IMG/VR virus record: IMGVR_UViG_3300020596_000084
Location: 1 to 30,356 of that record
Length of the DNA: 30,356 nt
Direction: 5' to 3' (one strand)
Origin: a virus
A program made the position numbers and the translations under genes. Numbering within the stretch: the stretch's first letter is position 1; each line of letters opens with the position of its first letter. This document shows positions 1,299-15,270 of the stretch, piece after piece. Below the pieces are notes generated by a model. It had not been told where the DNA came from and did no database searches. It saw only the letters and a list, made by a program, of their open reading frames with translations.

Positions 1299-1562
1299 CT
1301 AATCCCCATCCGGCCGTAACTCACCTTTTAAATCTGCTTTTATTTTTTCAAGTAGATCTTTTGAAAAAGAAAAGCCGCTGCGAGCCGCTGCTTGGTCAAC
1401 TATCTCAAGTGTTTCCTTGAAATCAGGACTCAGTTTTTCGCATTGCTTAAAGAATGCGTTGATAATACCTACGCCTTCTTGGTCACCCATGAACCGCATC
1501 TGGTGCCTGGCCTGGCAGACTATCTTCATTTGCAGTCCAAGTTCGTTTGGCTCTTCATTCAT
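1299..1562 (-). CDS. Hypothetical protein A (87 aa)
   Basis: Starts at the ATG at 1560-1562 (MNEEPNELGLQMKIVC) behind a clear ribosome site, GAGGAAAAATAAAA. It is the paralogue of the 342-635 product (62 of 81 aligned residues identical). Predicted small, soluble, mostly helical, with two conserved cysteines (KIVCQARHQ and FKQCEKL). Upstream of gene B with a four-base gap, so A and B probably are co-translated and may act together. The start region (GGAAAAATNAAAATGAAYGA) is shared with the starts at 3849 and 4020. Confidence 0.8.
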   Translation of the reverse strand: MNEEPNELGLQMKIVCQARHQMRFMGDQEGVGIINAFFKQCEKLSPDFKETLEIVDQAAARSGFSFSKDLLEKIKADLKGELRPDGD

Positions 1563-1630: not shown

Positions 1631-1924
1631 TCATCCGGATTGCTCATCCACTATTTTCACGATAACGCTACTCCAGTCAGCATTTGATGCCTCTCGCAAA
1701 TCAGACAGGCCAATAGTTTCAAACAATCGTTTTATTCTTCCGCTTGTAGATGCCGAAGAGCCGGGGCTTGTCATTTTCCCGTCGAACTCGTGAATTAGGT
1801 CGACTTCGTCAATCGCAAAAGTCAGTTGACCCTTGTATTTTTCCTTTGCATCCTCAAGAGAGGCCGCTACAACGAAGTAGCGCTCTGTCTGGATTTCTGT
1901 TAGTTCTATTCCGAAAATTGGCAT
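1631..1924 (-). CDS. Hypothetical protein (97 aa)
   Basis: The start is the ATG at 1922-1924, directly after the TAA of a 10-codon minigene, so it is probably translated by coupling; no separate strong ribosome site lies closer. The N-terminal part (MPIFGIELTEIQTERYFVVAASLEDAKEKYKG) looks like a small alpha/beta fold with the E..RYFVVAASLEDA pattern common in small phage and prophage proteins that modify or bind nucleic acid ends, but I cannot assign it. The C-terminal half has a Ser/Thr-rich linker (SPGSSASTSG). No membrane segment. Function unknown. Confidence 0.7.
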   Translation of the reverse strand: MPIFGIELTEIQTERYFVVAASLEDAKEKYKGQLTFAIDEVDLIHEFDGKMTSPGSSASTSGRIKRLFETIGLSDLREASNADWSSVIVKIVDEQSG

Positions 1925-1957
1925 TTAGCCCCCTTTATGCGTAACGCTTAAATTCAT
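1925..1957 (-). CDS. 10-codon leader minigene MNLSVTHKGG
   Basis: ATG at 1955-1957, ribosome site GAGGATTAGAAGA, ten codons, then TAA directly abutting the next ATG. Its first residues and DNA (AGAAGAATGAATTTAAGC) match the starts of the B genes (MDLSI.YKD) and of the methyltransferase (MNILSATYT). It is either a coupling leader or the remnant of a third B-type gene start fused to a different gene. Confidence 0.5.
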   Translation of the reverse strand: MNLSVTHKGG

Positions 1958-1965
1958 TCTTCTAA

Positions 1966-2010
1966 TCCTCATATCACACCGCTGCTGGTGCCGTATCTGA
2001 TTCTTCGGTC
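1966..2010 (-). repeat. Gene-boundary element B
   Basis: Minus strand: CGAAGAATCAGATACGG, CACCAGCAGCGGTG, TGATATGAGGATTAGAAG. It overlaps the 3' end of the 59-aa gene and gives the ribosome site of the minigene. Its left half matches element E, its right half matches element C. Confidence 0.65.
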
Positions 2011-2153
2011 GTTAAATTCGGTCTTGCGCGCGATAACACCTCCGGCGTTTCGTTGTAGACGCTGCAAAACCCTGCTTCAAAATGATCCTTTAGGCCAATA
2101 AAATCAAAGTCTGGGCTATTACAAAATGGACAGTTGATGTAATCGTCGTTCAC
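1974..2153 (-). CDS. Small CPFC zinc-binding-like protein, GTG start (59 aa)
   Basis: A GTG at 2151-2153 overlaps the methyltransferase stop as GTGA and has a strong ribosome site, GAGGAGAG, nine bases upstream. The product begins MNDDYINCPFCNSPDFDFI, with Cys8-x2-Cys11, followed by His24 and Cys30 (KDHFEAGFC). Such short CPFC proteins are common in phages; Lar-type restriction-alleviation and Com/Ogr-like zinc fingers begin similarly. A full four-cysteine set is not visible, so zinc binding is uncertain. Position directly behind a DNA methyltransferase would fit a DNA-modification or antirestriction role; that is inference. The last codons run into boundary element B (TAPAAV, TGA). Confidence 0.7.
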   Translation of the reverse strand: MNDDYINCPFCNSPDFDFIGLKDHFEAGFCSVYNETPEVLSRARPNLTTEESDTAPAAV

Positions 2154-3532
2154 TTTCTTCTCTCCTCATATCGCACCACTGGTGGTGCCGTCCTTTTTTT
2201 CTTCGCTTTAGATGGAACTGTCAGATTCGCTTCGACTAATGCTGCGGCGACACAGGGGCTGACTGAGTTTCCGACCATGCGCACCTGCGCTGTCTTGCTC
2301 AATTTCTTACCTTTTAATTCAGGCGCAATAATGTAATTTTTCGGGAAACCTTGAGCAGCAAAGAGTTCATGCGGCTCAAGCATTCGCATTCCTATATCTG
2401 CAATTATGTAATCGACATTTGCGATAGTGACCAGGGCCAAGCGGTCTTTTGTCGTGATTGTGTGCGCCGGTTCGTCGAGTGATTGCCCGCTGCCAGTTGT
2501 GAAATACTTCAGTAAGAAAGCTCGCACTAGCCCAGTTCCACCGCCGGCCATTACTGTACCAAGCGGCTTGTCTAGCACTCGCGGCTCTTGTCCCACTCGC
2601 TCACCGTAACCGGTTTGAATCAGCGTCGGCACCACTAGGCCGTGTGCATCTCGACTAGCTGTAAGTGTTTTAAAAGGCTCATCTAAGCCCTGGCCCCTGA
2701 AGTATTCGCCCTGGTGATTGCAGGTGACAATAAACGGCTTTTTTGCATCGATTACGTACTTCTGGATGCCTTTAGCAATTCGTCTTAAAGTATTGTCAGC
2801 TAGCGGTTTCTTCCGCTGGTAAATCGAAGGGCAAGGCAACGACCAATCAATAATTTCCGCCGCAGTTCGCCAAGGCTTCAGCTGACCATTCTTTACGCCG
2901 ATACTAGTTGGCGCTCCGTGTGTAGCTTCTGGCCAAACAATCGGCAAACCATCGCTTCTCGCAATCAAGAAAAGCCGCTTTCTTATTGTAGGAGCGCCGT
3001 AATCACACGCTTTAAGTATTTTATATTCAACTTTGTAGCCTAGGCGCTCTAAAGCAGTACAAAATGCTTTGAATGTTTTGCCCTTGTTTTTCAGACAAAG
3101 CATTCCTTCTTTAAGCGGTCCCCAAGTGACAAACTCTTCAACATTTTCGAGAAGTATTATTCGAGGCTTTACAGTTGCCGCCCAGCGCACCGCTACCCAA
3201 GCCAGATCTCTGACCTCTTTCGACCTGGGCGCACCACCTTTCGCTTTTGAAAAATGCTTGCAGTCGGGACTGAACCACGCCAACGCCACCGGCTTACCTT
3301 CGGTAATTACCGACGGCACAACGTCCCAAACAGATTCGCAATAGTGTCTGGTCAACGGGTGATTTGCTTCATGCATTACCAGAGCTTCTTGGTTGTAGTC
3401 GATTGCAATATCGACTGTATAGCCAGCGAGCCCAATTCCTGTTGATGCCCCGCCGCCGCCGGCAAAGTTATCTACAATCAATTCTTGAAACAAGCCAAGT
3501 TGGCGAGTATATGTAGCGCTTAAAATATTCAT
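2150..3532 (-). CDS. DNA (cytosine-5-)-methyltransferase, 460 aa
   Basis: Transfers methyl from S-adenosylmethionine to C5 of cytosine in a specific DNA site. The C5-methylase motifs are in order: motif I VDNFAGGGGASTGIGLAG (about 20-37), motif IV FSPDCKHFSKAKGG with catalytic Cys91 (the phage-type SPDC form of the usual PPC), motif VI ENVEEF (129-134), motif VIII APTIRKRLFLIAR, and at the C-terminus MLEPHELFAAQGFP and VRMVGNSVSP (motifs IX and X). The target region carries three LDEP/LDKP..T repeats (LDEPFKTLTAS, LDKPLGTVMAG, LDEPAHTITTK), typical of this family. Complete, so probably active; the target site cannot be read from sequence. The ATG overlaps the upstream stop as ATGA and the stop overlaps the next start as GTGA. 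No cognate endonuclease is next to it, which fits an orphan phage methylase protecting against restriction. Confidence 0.95.
   Translation of the reverse strand: MNILSATYTRQLGLFQELIVDNFAGGGGASTGIGLAGYTVDIAIDYNQEALVMHEANHPLTRHYCESVWDVVPSVITEGKPVALAWFSPDCKHFSKAKGGAPRSKEVRDLAWVAVRWAATVKPRIILLENVEEFVTWGPLKEGMLCLKNKGKTFKAFCTALERLGYKVEYKILKACDYGAPTIRKRLFLIARSDGLPIVWPEATHGAPTSIGVKNGQLKPWRTAAEIIDWSLPCPSIYQRKKPLADNTLRRIAKGIQKYVIDAKKPFIVTCNHQGEYFRGQGLDEPFKTLTASRDAHGLVVPTLIQTGYGERVGQEPRVLDKPLGTVMAGGGTGLVRAFLLKYFTTGSGQSLDEPAHTITTKDRLALVTIANVDYIIADIGMRMLEPHELFAAQGFPKNYIIAPELKGKKLSKTAQVRMVGNSVSPCVAAALVEANLTVPSKAKKKRTAPPVVRYEERRK
2161..2210 (-). repeat. Gene-boundary element C with perfect CACCACNNGTGGTG
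   Basis: Minus strand: CGAAGAAAAAAAGGACGG, CACCACCAGTGGTG, CGATATGAGGAGAG. Here the element lies in frame inside the methyltransferase C-terminus (encoding ...TAPPVVRYEE) and provides the ribosome site for the 59-aa gene. The palindrome 2173-2188 has 7-bp perfect arms around two bases. Confidence 0.8.
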
Positions 3533-4080: not shown

Positions 4081-4196
4081 GTCGTGAACGTGTCCACTCT
4101 AGAGATAGCTCGTAGCTGCTATCTCTAGAATGAAGGTGTGTTCGACGACGAACTAATTTTTCGGTGGACACGACCGAGTCGTATTTAATTGACTCG
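4081..4196 (-). promoter_or_regulatory. Structured leader of the leftward operon, candidate three-way junction
   Basis: Nested perfect inverted repeats. P1 is CGTGTCCAC (4089-4097) with GTGGACACG (4164-4172), 9 bp. Directly abutting it, P2 is TCTAGAGATAGC (4098-4109) with GCTATCTCTAGA (4118-4129), 12 bp with an 8-nt loop. P3 is GTTCG (4139-4143) with CGAAC (4148-4152). Next to P1 lies CGAGTC (4175-4180) with GACTCG (4191-4196). P1 enclosing P2 and P3 gives a three-way junction. If leftward transcription starts near 4220, this is a roughly 200-nt 5' leader before the first start codon at 4020. It could be a cis-regulatory RNA, or a set of protein-binding dyads in DNA. One GTTCACGAC copy (4081-4089) touches P1. 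Confidence 0.6.
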
Positions 4197-4256: not shown

Positions 4257-4519
4257 TCTATATACAGATGACTGGCACACGTGACAGCACCCGCCGCAGA
4301 AAACAGTCAAAAGCGCCAAAAGCAGCACAGGCGCATAGATACCTCATGTGATAGAGATGTGATGAGATTCGGCGGCTTAGTCTGTTAGTCGCAATAGTAG
4401 CAACGTTTTTTTTGATATATTGTGCATATCTAACGTGTCTTACTCAGTGTGATCTACTCGATATTGATTGTATATTTTTTATCCTCCGGACTTTTTTACC
4501 CCCTTAGCGATATACGCTA

Positions 4520-4563
4520 TATCCTCGATTGCACTTATCTATATCCTCAATTGTACTTATCTA
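4520..4563. repeat. 22-bp tandem repeat, two units
   Basis: Units 4520-4541 and 4542-4563 read TATCCTCRATTGYACTTATC plus TA and differ at two positions. The TATCCTC start links them to the TATCCTCCGGA family. Next to it TAGCGATATACGCTA (4505-4519) is a 5-bp-arm inverted repeat. Confidence 0.85.
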
Positions 4564-4582
4564 TATTGCGATATTTTCACTC

Positions 4583-4616
4583 CAAAAAAAACCTCTCTCG
4601 AAAAATTTTGCGAGGT
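4583..4616 (-). terminator. Weak terminator-like hairpin on minus strand
   Basis: The minus strand reads CCTCGCAAAATTTTTCGAG followed by AGAGG and eight T. The stem is short and A/T-rich and the T run starts five bases after it, so this is only a possibility. Confidence 0.25.
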
Positions 4617-4644
4617 ACCCCATAAATCATTTTGAGAAACACAA

Positions 4645-4659
4645 TTTGCTCTGAGCAAA
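4645..4659. promoter_or_regulatory. Operator-like palindrome TTTGCTCTGAGCAAA
   Basis: Perfect 7-bp arms around one central base. The spacing is too tight for a good RNA hairpin but right for a dimeric DNA-binding protein. TATATAAA follows at 4670-4677, so the palindrome would overlap the -35 zone of a rightward promoter, if one is there. Confidence 0.5.
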
Positions 4660-4741
4660 AAAAGACCACTATATAAAATGTTGTACGTCTACTTGCTCGT
4701 TAGTATTATCAACGTATACGCAATAGATACCAGCAAAATTC

Positions 4742-4804
4742 TATCCTCCGGCTATCCTCCGGATCCGAGGGTAGTTATTGCCCATTCCGGAGGCACGGAG
4801 GATA
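4742..4804. repeat. Long hairpin made from opposed TATCCTCCGG copies
   Basis: TATCCTCCG (4742-4750) pairs with CGGAGGATA (4796-4804), and CCTCCGGA (4756-4763) with TCCGGAGG (4786-4793): 17 bp of perfect pairing with a small internal loop and a 22-nt terminal loop. Confidence 0.8.
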
Positions 4805-4924
4805 GATCACTCCTAATAGTCCTTTTGGAAAATATCAATAATATTGATACTGAAATCAAGGTTTTTACTACTCACTACTAATCGACAAAAGGTTTAGTGG
4901 GCACTTTTATCCTCCGGAATGGGC
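4780..4924. repeat. Perfect 14-bp inverted repeat, 117 bp apart
   Basis: GCCCATTCCGGAGG (4780-4793) and CCTCCGGAATGGGC (4911-4924) are exact reverse complements. The left arm also pairs within the 4742-4804 hairpin, so two alternative structures compete for it. The right arm is followed by TTTTT (4925-4929), terminator-like for a rightward RNA. Confidence 0.8.
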
Positions 4925-5050
4925 TTTTTGGTACTTCGATCAGCCAACCATGCCGTTTTGCGCTGGAAATCTATCCTCCGGAAATTTGAAAAGGCCGTTT
5001 TTCGTGCTATTTTTGACCGTAATTGACTACTCAATCGAGAGGCCAGACTC

Positions 5051-9942: not shown

Positions 9943-10579
9943 ACAATTCTCTACTAGAGGCATCCAGCTTTTCGATTCGAAAAACAAAGACGACGGCGGC
10001 CTACCTGTGATTTCGGGTTACGCAGTCAAGTTTAACGCTTATTCCAGTCCCTGGTACGGCATCAAGGTAATAGTTGACCAGAATTTTTTTAACGGCATTT
10101 TAGACGACCCTGATCTGTGTGTGCTGGCGTCGTACACGCATGACACTGACGGCTTAAATATAGTTGCGCGATATCAACCTAGCGCCGGGGTAGAAAAAAT
10201 AAAACTGTCTGTTGACGAAATCGGCCTGAAGTACGAAATGGCACCAGTTAACACACAGCTTGGTCGCGATCTCGTTGAGCAGATTCGATTCGGTAATGTG
10301 CAAGGCGTATCGATGGGTGTTGAGGTCGCTGAGGATGATTGGACGGGCCTAAAGGACGGTTATCAAGTCAGACGATTAGTGCAATGCGGGATGCTCGATC
10401 ACTTCGCATTCACTTCTTGTCCAGCCTTTGCGAGTTCCTCTGCTGGAGTATCAGAATTTTCGATTTCTTCACCAGAAATGAGAGAGTTTTATAAGAGTAA
10501 GCAAAAGGAAAAGGCACCAAATCTGATGCCAGCGGAATATTTTGAAAACAAACTTCGGTTGATTGAGCTTGACAGTTAA
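9926..10579 (+). CDS. Prohead maturation protease, HK97 gp4-like (S78/U35)
   Basis: Cleaves the N-terminal delta domain of the capsid protein inside the prohead. The family pattern is visible: VISGYAVKFNAYS at the N-terminus, SYTHDTD with the likely catalytic His72, a GLKYEMAPVNTQLGRDLVEQIRFGNVQGVSMGV block with likely nucleophile Ser129, and RRLVQCGMLDHFAFTSCPAF, where most relatives have L.EVS..T.PAY. The third catalytic acid therefore appears changed or shifted (Asp158). ATG at 9926 with GAAGGA upstream, inside the end of the portal gene. Next is the capsid gene, as in HK97. Confidence 0.9.
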   Translation: MTKTCEQFSTRGIQLFDSKNKDDGGLPVISGYAVKFNAYSSPWYGIKVIVDQNFFNGILDDPDLCVLASYTHDTDGLNIVARYQPSAGVEKIKLSVDEIGLKYEMAPVNTQLGRDLVEQIRFGNVQGVSMGVEVAEDDWTGLKDGYQVRRLVQCGMLDHFAFTSCPAFASSSAGVSEFSISSPEMREFYKSKQKEKAPNLMPAEYFENKLRLIELDS

Positions 10580-10789
10580 AAAATTCCAGTTTATCATTTA
10601 CGCAAATTGAATCCGGCTCAGCGGTGCAAAGATTTTTTCAAATCGGCACACTGACTGACAAGCAAATAGCCCGCTAGTTTTCACTAAGCGCCGTGGTTGC
10701 AAAAATCGTCTAACACAGACGGTATCAGTAAACCATGGCGCTTTTGGCACGTGTTCACCTGATGCCGCACACGGAAAAGGTGAACACAA
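10580..10789 (+). promoter_or_regulatory. Structured leader of the major capsid gene
   Basis: In this 210-bp gap, stem 1 is AAGCGCCGTGGTT (10686-10698) with AACCATGGCGCTT (10731-10743), 13 bp including one G-U pair, with inner hairpin CGTCT/AGACG (10707-10711 and 10717-10721). Stem 2 is GTGTTCACCT (10751-10760) with AGGTGAACAC (10778-10787), a perfect 10 bp with a 17-nt loop. Stem 2's 3' arm holds AAGGTG, the apparent ribosome site of the capsid gene, so folding would hide it. A 5-bp hairpin GATTT/AAATC lies at 10631-10644. Possible roles: translational control, mRNA stabilisation or processing at the most expressed gene. Confidence 0.7.
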
Positions 10790-12103
10790 ATGTCTCTTGA
10801 ATTAATTAAAGATCTTACAGAGAAGCGAATGAACTGCTTCTCTCAGTTGAAGGCACTTGTAGATTTGCAGGCCGCTGAAAAGCGTGCGTTAACTCAAGTC
10901 GAGCAAGAAACTTTCAGCGCAATGAATGCTGACATGGACAAATTCAAATCTCAAATCGACGCTGAAAAATCTAAATTGGATAACGTCCACTTACTGGAAG
11001 TGCGCGAAGCTGAAATTTATTCGGCTCTAAAAGCCGGTGCAGTTGGCCCTGGTTTGATTATCGGTGACAAGCCAGGCACCACTATTTTGGGCGGCCAGGG
11101 CGAAGGTAACAAGACAGAAGCTGACAAAGCAAAAGAAATTTACGCGAAACAGTGCGAAGGACTAGAGCTTTATTTCCACTCTGATATAAAAAGAAAAGAA
11201 CTAGAGCAATACGATCTCAGACAAGACGTTATGACTCAAGGCGGTTACGCAGTCGTTGCACCAGTGCCTTACGCAACCGAAATTTTGAATGCTTTGCGTG
11301 ATCAATCTGTAATGAGACAGCTTTGCGATATCATGCCAGCTCTTGATTCGCCCGGCGGTTGGGGCCAACTGACGGCAAGCAGCATGGGCAGACCGACTCG
11401 CGTCGGAGAAAGACAGCGTGCCGCATTTGATACCAGCTTGGTATTTGGTCAGCGCGAAATGTTCACTCACGATCAAGAATTGACGCAGAAAATCACAAAT
11501 AAATTGTTGAATAATCCAAATGCAAACATGCTCGGATTAGTCAAAGAGAAGATGACAGAATCGCTTGCTGACGAACAAGAATATGAATTTATTTTGGCAG
11601 ACGGCGTCAAAAAACCACTAGGTTTCATGTATCCGTCGGCTGACGGTGTGCCATCTAGCCGACAGTTCTCGGGTGGTCACGTGAGCGGCACTGCTATTGG
11701 TATCGACAATTTTATTTTGCTAGCAACTAAAGTGCACGAGCGCTTAAGAGCGGGTGGATCATACCTGGTGCATACCGATGTTCAGTACCAAATGCGTATT
11801 CAAAAATCGCTCAGTTCGGGTGATTACTACTGGCAACCGAGCATGGTGGCTGGTGCTCCAGACCGCTTTAACGGCTATCCTGTCTACACTTCAAACAAGA
11901 TGCCAGCAACAATCACTTCAGGTTCTTTAGTTGGTGCTTTTGCAAACTTCAGCGAATACAAAATTCTTGACTCAAGCAGAATACTGATCTCGGTAGAAGA
12001 GCATCTGTACTGGGAAACAAAAGAAACTGGCATTTCAATGACGATGTTTAACGACGGACAGCCACGGCGCGCTGAAGCATTTGCAATCAGCAAGATGCCT
12101 TAA
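10790..12103 (+). CDS. Major capsid protein, HK97 fold
   Basis: Main shell protein. Residues 1-80 form a charged helical region (LTEKRMNCFSQLKALVDLQAAEKRALTQ...) like the scaffolding delta domain removed by the prohead protease. The rest has the family's signature segments: TQGGYAVVAPVPYATEILNAL, SVMRQLCDIMPA, a stretch FDTSLVFGQREMFTHDQELTQKI, MTESLADEQEYEFILADGVKKPLGFM, and YPVYTSNKMPA...VGAFANFSEYKILD. ATG at 10790 lies behind a structured leader. A stable hairpin follows the stop. Length 437 aa is usual for a delta-domain-containing HK97-type capsid protein. Confidence 0.95.
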   Translation: MSLELIKDLTEKRMNCFSQLKALVDLQAAEKRALTQVEQETFSAMNADMDKFKSQIDAEKSKLDNVHLLEVREAEIYSALKAGAVGPGLIIGDKPGTTILGGQGEGNKTEADKAKEIYAKQCEGLELYFHSDIKRKELEQYDLRQDVMTQGGYAVVAPVPYATEILNALRDQSVMRQLCDIMPALDSPGGWGQLTASSMGRPTRVGERQRAAFDTSLVFGQREMFTHDQELTQKITNKLLNNPNANMLGLVKEKMTESLADEQEYEFILADGVKKPLGFMYPSADGVPSSRQFSGGHVSGTAIGIDNFILLATKVHERLRAGGSYLVHTDVQYQMRIQKSLSSGDYYWQPSMVAGAPDRFNGYPVYTSNKMPATITSGSLVGAFANFSEYKILDSSRILISVEEHLYWETKETGISMTMFNDGQPRRAEAFAISKMP

Positions 12104-14895: not shown

Positions 14896-15270
14896 ATGCC
14901 ACAAACAGCTTTGACAGTGACTCAACTTAATGCATTTGACGGCGCAGCAGCGGCCGGTGAATTTGCTATAACTGAGACAGCAGCGGATACATCTAACGGA
15001 AATAAATTCACGCTTACAAGCCGCGAAATTTTGATAGCTCGCAATTCTGGTGCTTCAGCAAGAACTATTACAGTTACTTCGTTGCCAGATGCCATCAACG
15101 GCAGATCCGGTGATATCACTACGTACTCAATTCCAGCAGGCGCTTCGGCCGCTGTCCCGCCACTAAAAGCTGACGGTTGGAAGCAGGCTGACGGCTCACT
15201 GTACATCGCAGGCTCACACGCCGAAGTGCTATTTTCAGTGCTTCGTTTGCCTGCTAATTTGCCTCTCTAA
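14896..15270 (+). CDS. Probable virion protein of unknown role (124 aa)
   Basis: ATG at 14896 behind AAGGAAG. The sequence AADTSNGNKFTLTSREILIARNSGASARTITVTSLPDAINGRSGDITTYSIPAGASAAVPP followed by W.QADGSLYIAG.H.EVLFSVLRLP is a beta-rich fold that I recall from many siphovirus clusters, lying between tail completion and tail tube genes. It is likely part of the virion. No enzymatic motif, signal or membrane segment. Confidence 0.65.
   Translation: MPQTALTVTQLNAFDGAAAAGEFAITETAADTSNGNKFTLTSREILIARNSGASARTITVTSLPDAINGRSGDITTYSIPAGASAAVPPLKADGWKQADGSLYIAGSHAEVLFSVLRLPANLPL

Follow-up and report, generated by a model that had tools for sequence, protein, structure and literature searches.

In phage T7, the capsid gene (gene 10) has its own promoter, transcribed by the phage's own polymerase, and a structured leader that favours translation. 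The late leader of phage lambda, pR'-tR', is under Q control. A structure of Q is available (PMC6606751), and in HK022 the put RNA acts on early transcripts, where it suppresses termination (PMC9378689). In T4, hairpins in the initiation regions of genes e, soc, 49 and I-TevI hide the Shine-Dalgarno sequence (SD) on long transcripts, and a late promoter gives rise to short ones (PMC3014915).

The locus analyzed here is part of a viral record in IMG/VR that is 30,356 bases long and is hereafter called, as a whole, the window. The window carries genes for a terminase, a portal, a protease (PF04586), the capsid (PF05065), a connector and the tail, and its protease and capsid genes are separated by a gap of 210 nt. 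ATG 10790 is a credible capsid start, since the capsids of relatives start at the same place. The features of the gap and its borders, in which P1 and P2 stand for stem 1 and stem 2, are the following:

10569..10597, + strand: sigma-70-type promoter-like site TTGACA-17-TATCAT (11/12 match)
10615..10671, + strand: 5' leader domain, a predicted hairpin closed by GGC/GCC (fold only)
10668..10674, + strand: AGCCCGC motif, 11 nt 5' of stem 1 (sequence shared with relatives)
10686..10743, + strand: P1, with an outer 13-bp stem 10686-10698/10731-10743 and an inner hairpin 10705-10723 (fold; architecture and outer-stem covariation in relatives; model hit 10653-10746)
10742..10745, + strand: short U-run UUUU after P1, terminator-like but weak (sequence)
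10751..10787, + strand: P2, a perfect 10-bp stem 10751-10760/10778-10787 that pairs the SD (fold; SD pairing versus shuffles, p 0.002)
10777..10782, + strand: Shine-Dalgarno-like AAGGTG (sequence)
10790..12103, + strand: major capsid gene, HK97 fold (PF05065, phrog_10)

This arrangement resembles each of the described systems in part. Like T7 gene 10, it places a dedicated promoter and a structured leader 5' of a capsid gene, but T7 depends on a phage polymerase and has a leader that promotes translation, whereas the leader of the window hides the SD. With lambda pR'-tR' it shares a sigma-70 promoter and a leader ending in a terminator-like hairpin before late genes; unlike that leader, it lies inside the head operon, directly 5' of the capsid gene, and has an SD hairpin added. 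The likeness to the put RNA is one of layout, two hairpins in nascent phage RNA near a promoter; put acts in antitermination on early transcripts, and one of the hairpins of the window holds an SD. As in T4, an SD is held in a hairpin of a phage mRNA that would block ribosome binding on long transcripts; by contrast with T4, no promoter was found beside the helix, which is instead preceded by a promoter-like site and a large bipartite hairpin, and the gene is that of the capsid. The literature searched, with a partial coverage that makes this weak evidence, offered no description of this capsid leader nor of an RNA before a head gene.

Both stems were found where the initial annotation had placed them, and they are well above chance (z -6.2 to -7.7). 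The region 10670-10830 folds with -59.5 kcal/mol, whereas its dinucleotide shuffles give -35.1 ± 3.9 kcal/mol; z is -6.2, and none of 200 shuffles equalled the native fold. For positions -110 to +3, z was -7.7. In a GC-corrected scan of both strands of the contig, 10681-10790 was the most extreme 110-nt segment of the + strand, ranking first among about 3000. The arms of stem 1, of 13 nt, are 92% complementary, the single exception being a G-U pair, and the inner hairpin has 7 bp (10705-10711/10717-10723). Together they give P1 the form of a long rod in two parts, with about 20 bp and an internal loop, a shape compatible with an RNase III site. As regards the features of an intrinsic terminator, a GC-rich stem is present, only four U follow it, and the stem is longer and bipartite. 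Stem 2 encloses an inner 3-bp helix, and its 3' arm contains five of the six bases of AAGGTG, which stands 7 nt 5' of the capsid ATG.

Second to this leader in degree of structure on the + strand of the window is a nested hairpin at 4089-4172, in which CGTGTCCAC...GTGGACACG enclose a 15-nt inner inverted repeat. The non-coding stretch 4479-4982, which separates early genes that run leftward from the HNH and terminase genes that run rightward, contains five or six copies of the 12-mer (T/C)TATCCTCCGG(A/C), direct and inverted, which look operator- or iteron-like. Two small proteins of 97 and 87 amino acids, encoded at 342-635 and 1299-1562 (- strand), are clearly alike (e.g. FSFSKD.LEKIKADLKG.LRP) and probably represent a duplicated gene.

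Searches with the capsid, the terminase, the leader DNA and the stem patterns revealed no close relatives in phages, plasmids, IMG/VR or GTDB genomes. The best full-length capsid identity in phages, IMG/VR and GTDB genomes was about 30% at most, and the eight contigs that matched the exact stem 2 pattern included no capsid leader like that of the window. Distant capsid relatives mostly have gaps of less than 30 nt, and a subset of them has long leaders. These occupy a gap of 120-260 nt 3' of the protease gene, often with a TTGACA promoter near -220, and show a bipartite hairpin, a U-run, in many cases an SD-holding hairpin, and then the capsid start. Use of the long-leader capsids as queries brought many more loci with the same order. 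Terminator-like hairpins of -10 kcal/mol or lower were present in 27 of 61 gaps of at least 60 nt (7.2 expected), and those of -15 kcal/mol or lower in 22 of the 61 (3.3 expected); hardly any U-run is present in loci L334, L364 and L328, and that of the window is short. The leader was the most structured + strand segment of its locus in 15 of 22 cases and among the top three in 19, a ranking that is descriptive, as the 22 include some leaders first noticed for their folds. In Chymera and RHph_Y3_1, two annotated phages whose capsids are related, the gaps measure 56 and 95 nt and contain no such long leader. Loci L066, L081, L068, L187, L295 and L339 have gaps of 60-110 nt with a plain terminator-like hairpin and a T-run directly 5' of the capsid SD, perhaps a simplified version of this control. 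A 124-aa tail-region protein of the window (14896-15270) is 50% identical to one in locus L052, and despite this the L052 capsid went undetected with the window capsid as query.

The promoter-like site at 10569-10597 is the only 11/12 sigma-70 match on either strand of the window. It is located at -221 relative to the capsid start, with its -35 hexamer falling within the final protease codons, and its position predicts a transcript start near 10604. Such sites are enriched before long leaders: matches of at least 10/12 were found in 7 of 36 distinct leaders of 120-260 nt, compared to 0.1 expected from shuffles, and matches of at least 9/12 in 11 of the 36 (0.9 expected). An exact TTGACA was present in 14 of the 36, compared to 7 of 206 controls with short gaps. 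Judging from gap and position, the TGA stop of the protease gene seems to lie inside TTGACA in several relatives, which implies a higher chance rate of the hexamer (about 1 in 64 per TGA stop), still below the level seen. The motif AGCCCGC stands 10-12 nt 5' of the bipartite hairpin in L371, L378, L434, L328 and L320, making six leaders with the window, and is missing or changed in other members of the group.

Covariation among relatives, which the initial annotation had named as a check on the stems, was found for the outer stem of P1. In an alignment of 14 distant leaders, from which the window was left out, 92.9% of the cells of this stem were paired and 6 of 11 pairs had changed on both sides, with 17 two-sided changes compared to 5.7 in shuffles (0 of 500); sliding the partner arm lowered pairing to 32-59%. 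Stem 1, not stem 2, is the best conserved part. The initial annotation, which had the stems and the SD, had missed this, as well as the promoter-like site and the AGCCCGC motif.

A covariance model of the motif and P1, built from ten leaders with the window left out, gave as its best match in the window the leader itself (10653-10746), with 14.1 bits against 7.7 for the next. The match is weak, with an E of 0.22 per 60 kb (both strands); scaled to a 210-nt target, E is about 8e-4, likewise weak by itself. In a second, broader model that took in more divergent members, the window score fell to 8.4 bits; this model pointed to L415 (E 5e-8), in which reading revealed a TTGACA-18-TATACT site (11/12-type) 224 nt 5' of an in-frame GTG start, followed by P1, a U5 run and a hairpin around GGAGGAGGG. 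The L415 capsid (1767-3386) has a long N-terminal extension from GTG 1767, and was missed by the start-finding rule and exposed by the RNA model. In whole virus records, a single strong model match (E < 1e-8) was observed in 15 of 20, at the capsid leader where coordinates are known. In Rfam 15, no family reached the gathering cut-off for the window and ten related loci, and matches to the leader were at chance level only. The window, with its 210-nt gap, its 11/12 promoter at -221 and AGCCCGC 11 nt before stem 1, is a candidate member of this group of capsid-leader RNAs on the basis of layout, promoter, motif and the weak model match.

Concealment of the capsid SD, as proposed in the initial annotation, is strongly predicted in the window. 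It turns up again in distant phages with a comparable capsid leader, though not universally: in several long leaders the SD is open. Opening the capsid start region would cost 18.4 kcal/mol, the highest value among the 27 gene starts of the window; the second highest, 14.9, belongs to a doubtful TTG start. The first tests, which took all 36 long leaders together, showed no significant excess of SD pairing relative to shuffles; p was < 0.05 in 5 of the 36 versus 1 of 80 short-gap controls, in which the SD tends to be less paired than in shuffled sequences. When the region was cut after the U-run, p for SD pairing was 0.002 for the window, L266 and L328, 0.008 for L341, 0.015 for L363 and about 0.03 for L391 and L322. 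For 15 relatives not chosen for P2 the combined p was 0.0015, with hand-set borders and mononucleotide shuffles. As the cut was set by hand once the folds had been seen and the shuffles were mononucleotide, this test is supportive, not decisive, and SD hiding by P2 is regarded as recurrent, not universal. A CGGTGCA...CGGCACAC pairing common to the window and L266 was set aside, chance not being excluded. The further proposal that upstream translation opens the helix is not supported, since the protease stop is separated from stem 1 by 106 nt and from stem 2 by 171 nt, and a 21-codon frame (10735-10800) that crosses stem 2 lacks an SD and is not conserved among relatives; leader-peptide coupling through this frame was therefore rejected.

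The stems with their excess over chance, the promoter enrichment, the P1 covariation of relatives and the recurrent SD pairing were established by computation. The reading that we favour, at a confidence about evenly balanced, is that the 210-nt gap constitutes a capsid control module with its own promoter, a structured mRNA leader and a two-part gate. A sigma-70-type promoter would produce a capsid mRNA with a leader of about 185 nt, made up of a 5' domain ending in AGCCCGC, bipartite P1 with its U-run and, in the window and in many relatives, P2 pairing the SD. P1 would act first, through transcription attenuation or as an RNase III processing stem, and P2 would act second by blocking ribosome binding. 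With such a two-step gate, transcripts made at the wrong time would yield little capsid, and output would rise once the gate is opened, perhaps by a phage antiterminator, an RNA-binding protein or an RNase.

Parts of the same evidence agree with other accounts. The unit from promoter to U-run could yield a short stable RNA of its own, of ca. 110-155 nt, either a small RNA of the phage or a late leader comparable to lambda pR'-tR', with the capsid made by read-through and P2 silencing stray read-through. Most members do have a promoter and a terminator-like end, and P1 is conserved better than P2; however, the single strong model match per virus record falls at the capsid leader where coordinates are known, U-runs are often short and P2 adjoins the capsid start, so that we consider a separate RNA unlikely. 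Substrates of RNase III are expected to be long bipartite rods with an internal loop, as is the ca. 20-bp P1, and the U-run is not strictly kept. P1 could thus be an RNase III site in a leader that mainly gives the abundant capsid mRNA a stable 5' end, to which P2 adds stability, the SD being used via re-opening or processing. A pairing of about 19 kcal/mol at the SD would nevertheless be costly for an abundant protein, and most members do carry a U-run; we see little probability in this account.

Two further explanations appear more remote. In a lock of the T4 gene e type, concealment of the SD by P2 would be confined to long read-through transcripts, and the SD would be open on shorter ones made from a late promoter next to P2. 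Such a lock has its precedent in T4 genes e, soc, 49 and I-TevI (PMC3014915). It would fit the pairing of the SD in a helix and the drop in opening cost from 18 to about 5 kcal/mol when the 5' end is at 10760 or later. Against it, a scan for sigma-70-like sites, which would miss phage-specific promoters, found none between 10600 and 10778, and the promoter-like site that was found is upstream of the whole structure; such a lock is very unlikely. That P2 is not universal and that the window has no near relatives are points in favour of the stems being chance folds or DNA-level inverted repeats, either an operator or a relic, with no role as RNA. The z of -6 to -8, the P1 covariation of relatives and the promoter enrichment speak against this, and half-sites show no clear excess elsewhere in the window, a result on which a DNA operator with half-site GTGTTCACC was rejected; we give this explanation, too, a very low probability.

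The control module thus remains the preferred reading, and the similar folded leaders before the capsid genes of distant phages suggest an undescribed control switch for shell production. More tentatively, and with the chances rather against it, these leaders could form an undescribed and widespread class of phage leader RNA at the protease-capsid junction of HK97-fold phages of many bacteria, acting as a two-step capsid gate, or else as an independent small RNA that capsid expression or assembly requires. Capsid protein is needed in far more copies than the products of neighbouring genes, and how phages with one long head operon control ratio and timing is known for few models. If true, a dedicated promoter and a folded gate in a capsid leader, recurring in distant phages, would be a simple and testable answer, and a new RNA control part.
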